From positions 2,174,545-2,238,544 of the forward strand of contig OZ025888.1 of NCBI GenBank assembly GCA_964019415.1: a stretch of DNA of 64,000 bases, read 5' to 3'. Below are positions 7,844-59,044 of the stretch, in pieces. Each line of letters starts with the position of its first letter. Within the stretch, counting starts at the first letter, position 1. This DNA comes from Ianthella basta. Taxonomy: Eukaryota > Porifera > Demospongiae > Verongiida > Ianthellidae. Both the position numbers and the translations under genes were made by a program. The notes under the pieces are model-generated. The model did no database searches. It was not told the DNA's origin and saw nothing but the letters and a program-made list of their open reading frames with translations.

Positions 7844-10678
7844 TCAGATGCTGCTCTGCTTGCTTTCCAATGTGCAGCCTTCTCCATTCCCAGCAGACTG
7901 GCTTGGGTCAGTATCGGAAGAGAACCTATGGAATCCATTCAAAGATGTATTATCCTGGAAGCCTGTTTCAGCAATGGAATTGGTTTCACCATCCTGACTA
8001 TTCATGGACACTTGTGAAGGAGACACTGCTTTTACGTTCACCTCATTGATGGACTGCCTGTCTTCGTCTACCTTGTGTACCAATTCAATTTCACCTTCTG
8101 CCAAATAGGGAGATGTACTCCTTCCCTTAGTGCTCTCCAATACACATGAAGGTTCAACGTACTTGCTAGCCATTCCTCCAGCAGAGGTGGGAAAAGAGTA
8201 TGGGGTGGCAGAAGTAGGGGCTGTAATTCTTTCCAGGGTGCTGCTACTGTGCTGTTCACTGGTGTGCCCATCAGGTATCCTAAGGGTTGCCTGTAAAGCC
8301 TTCCTCCAAGAACTGACAATAGAAGAATTTTTTCGCAACACTGGCCTCTTGGCAGTGGCATTGGGCATAACAGTAGCCTTCTTGTGTTGGCAAGGAAGGC
8401 AGCTCTTCCAAAATTTACGAGCTTCTGTAGACCTTAGGATATAAAATGCAAACAGGTACACACCCAGGAAAGCAGTCATCAGGGTGAAGATCCACTCAGC
8501 AGGGTAGCGCACTTCTACCAGAACATCACTGCTGGCTAGCAGTCCAAAAGCCCAACCAAATCCAAAGAGAAGAGACAGTCCCAGAACAATCATAAAGTTC
8601 TGCTTTACTTTGCTAAATTTTTCATTGTTGCGTGTCTCCTTCTTAATATTAGGCCTGCACAGCAGATTAGCAATAACAACACTGAATATGACCCAATTGA
8701 TAATGTAGATGACACCAAAGGGTACCAGTAGACCGATCCAGAATGAGTAGCCATGCACACGACAGCTGCAAGATGGAAAGAGGGAGAGAGTGAATTGGCT
8801 TGCAGGGATAGGAAAGGAAGGGAGAGCGGAAAGGAGCAGGAAGGATATCAAAATGAAGAGGCATGCAGGGGGAGGTGTGGATGGAAGAAGGAAGAAGACC
8901 AGTGGGAAACTGTGTAGAAGACAGGGTGCATGATGGATGGTGGTGCATGGGGAGAATAACGTTTCATTATATGATTGTATCTAAATATTTAGCAAACATG
9001 TTCAGTTGTTTAGCTCCAGGTGTGCTTACAATTGTGTGTGGATATAATTCTGGTAACGTGGAGCAAGGGAAAATGTCACAATGAATGCTGGAACCACTGC
9101 AAGAGCAATAGAGAATAATTATGATAATATGTGTCAGATGTTACAACAATGATATGATTAGGTAAAGATGATGTCATGCTTCTCTGGCTTCACCAATTAG
9201 CAACATACCCCAGCATATAGCCATGGCAATGGCAAGGTAGCTGTCAATGTCTGGTTTGTACACAGTCACCAGTTTCCTCTGTACATAGATGGCTTCTGCT
9301 GCCATCCAGAAGAACACAGCCAGGAAGAAGTAGTGCATGAGTGCAGACACCAGTCCACAGAGAACAGGGACACCAGGTGAGAAGGTGCTGATGAAGAAGG
9401 TGACGTACAGCCCCACCAGAGCAATGCAGAGGTTGATCAGCAGCTTTGAATAAACAGTCTTTCTGAGTTTCCTAAATGGATCATGTGAGATGCATATAGT
9501 TATATATAGTTAATTAGGTACTTGTGTGTGATAATGTAATAATAAATATATCATGTCTAGGGTGCAAGGACCTTTGGCAATGATTCAGGAAGTTCTATGG
9601 AATGTGATTATTCATGGCCATGCATAGTGGACTGGAGGGAAACAATGAAAGTGGCAGGATAAATTCAGCTAAAATGCTAGATGCAAAATATTGGCCCACT
9701 CAGGTCCCTCTCCAAATGGTTCTTCCTAATATAATATGTGCATGATCTTGAGGATGTGTTTCAGATAAATTTCAAGAGGTGATTGCTTAATTGTCATGGG
9801 CAACTACCATGACAGGATACTCAGAACAGGGAGAAAGAAATGCAGCAAGTACATAAACGTACACAGAAGCCATGCAGATCATCTACAGACATTTACTGTA
9901 CTCATGTGTTTCACTGAAATGCTTAAAGGTTTGCAGCAGGCTCCCTAGTAAATATAATAATGGAGAAAGTGTAAGTGGCTGACTGGTCTTCAGCATATAT
10001 AAATACTTCAACACTTTGTATTAGAATTAGGTACACTGAAGCAATACACCTCTTAGAAGACACCATCAAATCTTTGTACATCTACTGTACTCTCTCTTAC
10101 ATTATTATTATTATAAGTTTATAGATACATATATACTGTTACCAAGGAAACCATGTTTTCTCGGGCTTATATCACCTATTTGCACATGGTTTCCTTGGTA
10201 TTGGTATATATATTATATATAGACCTCTTGAATGGGCTGTATTGGTGATATATCCCTCGGCCTTCGACCTCGGGAAATCACCTAATACAGCCCCTTCAAG
10301 ATGTCTATATATATTACATAGTACGGTAGGTTGGTCCACAGCCTCTATATAGGACCTCAGTGCTCATATTTGCCTCGGCGCTTCGCACCTCGGTAAGTAT
10401 GTAAGTGCCTCAGTCTTATATATCGGCTATACACCTCCCTACTGTACTATATGTTATACATAAAGGTTATTGAATATCTGTGAAACACTTCTTAAAGGTA
10501 TTAAGTGCATGCATGCTCCTTAACATAACCCTCCAACATGGCATGGCACTCACTTCTTTGCAAGATAAGTGATGATGATGATGGTGAGGCAAATGCTGGA
10601 GAGCATAGTACCAATGTAAGATACCCAAGTGATGGCGACTTCATTTAGGTCTTGACGCTGGGGGGTGGGAGTAACATC
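7844..10678 (-). CDS. Exons E49-E52: seven-transmembrane domain and cytoplasmic tail
   Basis: E49 (10678-10554) gives TM1 ([20 protein letters not shown]). E50 (9471-9209) gives TM2 ([18 protein letters not shown]), TM3 ([19 protein letters not shown]) and the start of TM4. E51 (9096-9030) completes TM4 ([15 protein letters not shown]). E52 (8765-7844) gives the ECL2 cysteine ([10 protein letters not shown]), TM5 ([16 protein letters not shown]), TM6 ([18 protein letters not shown]), TM7 ([18 protein letters not shown]) and a tail of about 170 residues containing [12 protein letters not shown]. Conserved adhesion-class features are present ([11 protein letters not shown] in TM3, FGFGWAFG in TM6). 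The stop is at 7844-7846. No canonical AATAAA was seen in the next few hundred bases. Confidence 0.9.

Positions 10679-59044: not shown

Follow-up and report, generated by a model that had tools for sequence, protein, structure and literature searches.

To our knowledge, adhesion GPCRs carry one GAIN domain per receptor, as a general rule rather than by strict definition. No two-GAIN adhesion GPCR was found described in the accessible parts of the literature searched, which consisted mostly of papers outside subscription journals and bioRxiv; likewise, the accessible parts of the GAIN numbering paper (PMC11697300), a 2026 review (PMC13197933), the Amphimedon GPCR paper (PMC4302439) and a choanoflagellate GPCR paper (PMC12716839) contain no such receptor. 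Two further papers inform on self-cleavage at the GPS. Chung et al. (PMC12488864) report that a spacer between ectodomain and membrane cut cleavage of E2 from 45% to 10%, with effects in the same direction in other adhesion GPCRs. According to Pohl et al. (PMC13062082), a phenylalanine beside the GPS histidine aids cleavage, and the residue before the conserved cysteine is glycine in cleavable human receptors and asparagine in ADGRB2, which is hardly cleaved; a four-change ADGRB2 variant including N893G and S876F was still little cut.

Here we describe a locus of the sponge Ianthella basta whose predicted product, with two GAIN domains, would depart from the one-GAIN rule if the joined gene model is right. 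The stretch of DNA analysed (the window) is 64,000 nucleotides long and corresponds to G000:C21:2174545-2238544 in a 209-Mb assembly. With a probability of roughly 0.6, we read the locus as an in-frame fusion of two members of a tandem adhesion-GPCR array, default splicing of which would give one receptor with two GAIN domains and a single 7TM domain. That there is one gene with one transcript is a prediction from genomic sequence. The features to which we refer, with exon numbers following an earlier note on this DNA, are as follows.

7844..59044, minus strand: whole gene model, E1 to E52 (joined frame, AG/GT internal borders)
58527..59044, minus strand: E1-E2, start codon, hydrophobic leader (hydrophobic aa 5-28) and first N-terminal domain
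34583..49049, minus strand: E3-E21, remaining N-terminal ectodomain (TIG, fn3 and others; model and Pfam), without the E20 of the earlier note
34897-34583, minus strand: E21, first Ig exon (joined model)
20641..27976, minus strand: module 1, E22-E34, with Ig, EGF, the parallel of the HRM-like part of module 2, and GAIN1-GPS1
20641..20744, minus strand: E34, GPS1 exon with HL|T, ending in phase 0
20323..20386, minus strand: E35, 64-nt putative chimeric breakpoint exon, phase 0 in and 1 out (paralog alignments)
10938..20206, minus strand: module 2, E36-E48, the second series of Ig, EGF, HRM-like and GAIN2-GPS2
10938..11041, minus strand: E48, GPS2 exon with HL|T, 27 residues ahead of TM1
7844..10678, minus strand: E49-E52, 7TM (secretin/adhesion type) and cytoplasmic tail
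2653..4772, minus strand: orphan 7TM set, a TM1-exon match from codon 12 followed by TM2-TM7 exons

The model was curated by hand, with exon borders fixed from lengths, phases and paralogs; automatic exon chaining alone gave too many small exons and spoiled some borders, and the splice-site scores derive from generic weights that are not species-trained. It runs from an ATG at 59044 to a stop at 7844 and comprises 51 exons, 11,100 nt and 3,699 aa, with a single terminal stop, a frame that is open throughout and AG/GT at all internal borders. The earlier note had proposed 52 exons joining in phase to 11,133 nt; the open joined frame stands, whilst the count obtained here is 51 exons and 11,100 nt, and E20 of that proposal was not confirmed. 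The shortfall of 33 nt is probably this one small exon. A 33-nt exon at 35227-35195, which would restore 11,133 nt, was found in automatic chains only and was omitted. The weak point of the N-terminal half is E8 (26 nt), without which the frame is lost; the end of E50 at 9209 was picked by hand over 9194, both being in the same phase. The 13 parallel exon pairs claimed at 27976-20641 and 20206-10938 (minus strand) are all there: each of the 26 exons has an AG acceptor, a GT donor and an open frame, and the pair lengths are those given previously (282/282, 300/297, 375/372, 138/138, 279/279, 89/89, 241/241, 242/296, 141/141, 95/95, 460/475, 58/58 and 104/104 nt).

A Pfam scan of the predicted protein confirmed both proposed GPS motifs, each matching PF01825 over profile positions 1-45 (49.7 and 48.5 bits; cut-off 22.5). 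The Cys, Trp, Cys-x-Cys and H-L-[S/T] of the GPS motif occur in both modules, the last as HLT in each case. The 3′ part is the single 7TM domain previously suggested, with a match to 7tm_2 (PF00002) of 98.9 bits (cut-off 20.6) over profile positions 5-234 of 250. The joined frame and the Pfam matches thus support two complete GAIN-GPS modules ahead of one 7TM in one open gene model. The GAIN family PF16489 was not matched at E<=0.01 in the Pfam scan. The GAIN fold was recognised with a profile built from both modules and four paralogs (six sequences), which aligns with the C-terminal part of the GAIN in solved adhesion receptors; 16 distinct sequences matched at E<=0.01, including L3, B2, CELSR1, F1, G6, B3, E5, latrophilin-1, G3 and G1. 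GAIN subdomain A was unmatched in this comparison with solved receptors.

Each of the scanned module pieces, the first of which starts with E21, gave four Ig_3 stretches, an EGF match and a GPS match; an HRM match, below cut-off, was obtained in module 2 alone. TIG and fn3 matches lie in the N-terminal part, and E1-E5 (59044-45907) matched no Pfam family except for a PKD match below cut-off. Among the matches listed in a protein search with E1-E5 were five proteins at 34-48% identity, from a mollusc, three rotifers and a JGI entry. A hydropathy scan identified a leader (aa 5-28), a stretch upstream of GPS1 (1782-1802) and the 7TM region from 3257, with no TM-like stretch between GPS1 and GPS2. 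The distance from HLT to TM1 is 27 residues for GAIN2 and 1,004 for GAIN1, and GAIN2 alone directly precedes TM1; the two GAIN domains are 86% identical over E42-E48. At aa 2759, within E41 of module 2 (15138-15050), there is a furin-type RRKR, the counterpart of which in E27 of module 1 (23167-23079) is NRKR, with the first Arg missing. Going by the motif, cleavage at RRKR would free everything before aa 2759, GAIN1 included.

The same contig, C21, carries the single-GAIN paralogs p1, p2, p3, C, B and U. They have counterparts of the module exons, except that none was matched for E36 in p1 and p2. In the paralogs the GPS exon is followed by its own TM1 exon, whereas in the fused gene the TM1 exon is broken off and followed by an Ig exon. 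The earlier note gave neither a position for the intervening exon E35, nor the fact that a direct join of E34 to E36 breaks the frame. E34 ends in phase 0, the phase in which the TM1 exon (E49) starts, and E36 starts in phase 1, as does E22 after E21; because of these phases, E35 is needed to keep the frame. Direct E34-E36 splicing was rejected, as it results in a frameshift and a stop at codon 2270. The best exon in the 434-nt interval between E34 and E36 lies at 20386-20323, is 64 nt long and is open in the required phase; none of 300 first-order resamplings of this 434-bp interval equalled its score, and amongst the 50 acceptors and 50 donors of the model its own come eighth and fourth, respectively.

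Alignments reveal E35 to be made of two parts. The acceptor and the first 11-14 nt correspond to the paralogs' TM1 exon, whilst the 3′ ~50 nt and the donor are the tail of an Ig exon of the E21 type, the donor GTGAGTTG being the same as that ending E21 within the window. On the left, three plus-strand copies match 20858-20376 at 75-79% with their GPS exon, the intron behind it and the first part of the TM1 exon; on the right, copy C matches 20372-19860 at 88%, the similarity extending past the donor into the next Ig exon, and the region around the E35 donor (20343-20307) matches the window's own E21 end (34603-34567) at 87%. On the evidence of these alignments, E35 is the putative breakpoint itself, at which two array copies were fused in frame with ancestral splice sites; since such an exon joins the two halves in frame, they would be expected to splice together. 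E35 is about 90% identical to copy C, as against 88% over the whole matching stretch, and thus displays no extra conservation. In the copy C relic, however, a TAA stop in the E22 frame occupies the position at which E35 reads TAT; the open frame of E35 is therefore not simply the present one of copy C. The junction place in copy C (C21:2142690-2142990) has, by eye, an fn3-like end just before a truncated relic of Ig exon E21, and because these two lie side by side it was probably broken more than once.

Modules 1 and 2 are interchangeable in phase, with joint inclusion open via E35, and skipping either one stays in frame (2,722 or 2,743 aa). The locus might then encode an ordinary adhesion GPCR with two isoforms and one GAIN per protein, in which E22-E34 or E36-E48 is alternatively joined to E21 and E49: both skips are open and in frame, and modules joined to each other without E35 are out of frame. 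We hold this to be unlikely, as the E35 splice sites are strong and common to the TM1 and E21 exons of other copies, and skipping 14 exons would therefore need special regulation.

Alternatively, a stretch between two array genes may have been dropped during assembly, joining a GPS exon to a foreign Ig exon. The array is repeated, the assembly is a single one, and 70 bp on the GPS-exon side are identical to C21:2307760-2307829. Beyond these 70 bp, however, no other place found in the assembly exceeds 76% similarity to the left flank or 90% to the right flank, so that an identical parent from which a collapse could have arisen is missing. The junction, moreover, occurs once in the assembly, and the join lies in frame within one exon. 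We consider an assembly error highly improbable.

With respect to constraint, the aligned codons were free of stops, both in the two modules and in the counterparts from p1, p2, p3, C, B and U, some exons being aligned partly. Over all module codons, dN/dS was 0.34-0.51 in 27 of 28 pairs and 0.54 for module 1 versus module 2, the latter comparison giving 0.75 for the Ig half and 0.38 for the GAIN half. Identity to module 1 over E42-E48 is 79-89% for copies C, p3, B and U. Most of the divergence is probably older than the fusion, hence these ratios indicate functional parts and not a functional fusion. That dN/dS is mostly pre-fusion and reaches 0.75 between the Ig halves of the two modules, that E35 is no better conserved than its surroundings, that the skips are in frame and that an orphan 7TM adjoins the gene all weigh against the fusion reading.

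The orphan 7TM lies 5.3 kb behind the gene's own 7TM and has no GPS; its TM1 start (codon 12) is 20-30 nt from the TM1-exon break in E35. It is possibly the right-hand junction of the rearrangement, and could also be an alternative TM2-TM7 cassette or debris; its position beside the gene is a sign of an unstable locus. Between 10.0 and 5.8 kb of the window, p2 or p3 is the best match in 10 of 10 tiles. The tiles of module 2 are mixed, with module 1, p1-p3, C and, in one tile, U as best matches; from 4772 downward the best matches are B and U, with a dS of 0.06 between the orphan 7TM and U. The simplest single event would be a ~15.6-kb insertion in which a recipient copy took up, within its TM1 exon, the 3′ half of a p/C-like copy and had its own 7TM displaced downstream to 4772. 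Such an insertion fits both breakpoints, which are about 20-30 nt apart in the same exon; contrary to it, the intron after GPS1 resembles the p copies whereas the orphan 7TM resembles B and U. The data would also agree with a deletion between two adjacent genes and subsequent gene conversion. We rejected the idea that module 2 is a recent internal duplicate of module 1, as each module is in many stretches at least as similar to other copies as to its twin. The fusion looks like the product of array rearrangement and not of a simple tandem duplication of one module.

The 264 kb of the array that were examined (less 12,500 bases) contain 8 GPS exons, and E1 relatives occur at 8 places. Copies p1, p3, C, B and U have one E1 relative and one GPS each, whilst the fused gene has one E1 for two GPS; the start of p2 probably sits in the part left out. 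Seven of the 8 places lie outside the fused gene and have relatives of E1 and E2. At two of these, C21:2154365 and C21:2130094, there is no own GPS within the stretch, and they represent gene fragments or another gene form. At 1891-1179 of the window (minus strand) the next array gene, copy B, starts with its relatives of E1 and E2. Open frames in large introns (25.4-37.7, 49-52 and 55.9-56.7 kb of the window) are, judged by eye, reverse-transcriptase-like pieces of transposable elements.

Across the assembly the close subfamily has at least 97 GPS exons and at least 96 TM2-4 exons, both being lower bounds as distant rows were dropped and the best candidates alone were scored. A TM exon follows within 12 kb on the same strand for 88 of the 97 GPS exons. 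Of the nine with no TM2-4 exon found behind them, eight are succeeded by a further GPS within 30 kb, no TM2-4 exon having been detected in the interval (the window pair is one of these), and the other is the lone C21:1997323, which has a stop. The GPS exons of the window are the closest at 9.7 kb apart, the other pairs being separated by 15.9-28.8 kb. At C8:2205493, C8:2777607, C8:2686585 and C8:2372273 an own TM1 exon comes right after the first GPS (4 kb examined for the last two), and at the first two of these the fn3 and Ig exons of the next gene start 11-12 kb on; C8:2341908, C8:3038643 and C8:3113680 have a stop inside the GPS match. The window pair is the only one of those examined in which the TM1 exon is lost after the first GPS and an Ig exon follows. 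The regions C8:2203500-2222999 and C8:2777500-2793999 each contain a GAIN-GPS and an own TM1, with no TM2-4 detected before the next gene; these two copies are possibly GAIN receptors reduced to one TM. Amongst the 96 TM2-4 exons, eight are without a close preceding GPS: seven come second to another TM exon that lies 3.6-10.2 kb ahead of them, with no GPS hit in the interval, and the eighth is alone on C1.

Such debris in the subfamily (8/96 TM2-4 exons without a close GPS; 9/97 GPS exons without TM2-4), the orphan 7TM adjoining the gene and the stop met at the eighth codon on reading through the E34 donor would each suit a by-product of a rearranging array that gives no working receptor, with transcripts that end after GAIN1 or are not made, or with an allele that is being lost. 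We regard this as very unlikely, given that 51 of 51 exons are open with AG/GT borders and that E35 has TAT where the copy C relic has TAA.

The fusion reading would work as follows. The 3′ half of one copy (E21 tail, E36-E48 and 7TM) would have been placed inside the TM1 exon of another, after its GAIN and GPS, and the junction would have become E35, with a TM1-exon acceptor and an E21 donor, both strong and ancestral, leading from phase 0 to phase 1 with no stop. Default splicing would then produce, in order, the N-terminal domains, module 1 with GAIN1, a 21-residue linker, module 2 with GAIN2, and one 7TM; we infer E34-E35-E36 splicing as the default because the splice sites have counterparts at the TM1 and E21 exons of other copies. 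GAIN2, 27 residues ahead of TM1, likely does the normal self-cleavage, with THFAILL as tethered agonist. GAIN1, ~1,000 residues from TM1, would presumably fold, be poorly cut and chiefly lengthen the ectodomain; were GPS1 to be cut, the receptor would have another shedding point, far from the membrane, and the THFAILL so freed could not directly reach its own 7TM.

The earlier proposal that GPS1 cuts, leaving a fragment held non-covalently, is not supported in that form: distance from the membrane lowers cleavage in the study of Chung et al. (PMC12488864), ~1,000 residues separate GPS1 from TM1, and skipping one module or the other preserves the frame. The cleavage-aiding phenylalanine is kept in both GAIN domains (CQFW). 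An asparagine precedes the GPS cysteine (SRNC or SSNC) in all six sequences aligned (E34, E48, C, p3, B and U), and because this is the ADGRB2-like residue and not glycine throughout, cleavage across the whole subfamily is of interest. Self-cleavage at either site is uncertain and, by analogy with the described receptors, would be less likely at GPS1 than at GPS2. We think it quite unlikely that two working GAIN domains are cleaved separately in series, the distal one shedding the outer half of the ectodomain and exposing THFAILL far from the membrane, the proximal one gating the 7TM; if this were true, force or ligand could act in two steps on one receptor. If expressed, the fused gene would provide a natural experiment on whether a GAIN domain needs its membrane position for self-cleavage, as one receptor would hold two similar GAIN domains, one at the membrane and the other ~1,000 residues away. 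The locus also illustrates that a tandem receptor array is able to make a new architecture, the breakpoint itself being a frame-keeping exon.

The nearest relatives of the GAIN-7TM part among the matches listed in a protein search were ADGRG4, ADGRG6 and two coral receptors, four matches that are all distant, and another protein search was dominated by Ig proteins; no close relative of the fusion was present among the protein matches listed, which cover the scored part of the database. We conclude that the gene is real and unusual, and that, at the level of sequence, it is best described as an in-frame fusion in a tandem adhesion-GPCR array, predicting a receptor with two GAIN domains and one 7TM. 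When compared with ADGRB2, which has HLS and is hardly cleaved (PMC13062082), the predicted protein likewise has an asparagine before the GPS cysteine (N893 in ADGRB2; SRNC here), whereas the phenylalanine that ADGRB2 lacks is present in both GAIN domains of the fused gene (CQFW). With the adhesion GPCRs (class B2) as a whole it shares the same GPS (Pfam), the C-terminal GAIN part, the 7tm_2 domain and a long ectodomain of adhesion domains; it differs from them in its two predicted GAIN-GPS modules in one gene, the first of them away from TM1.
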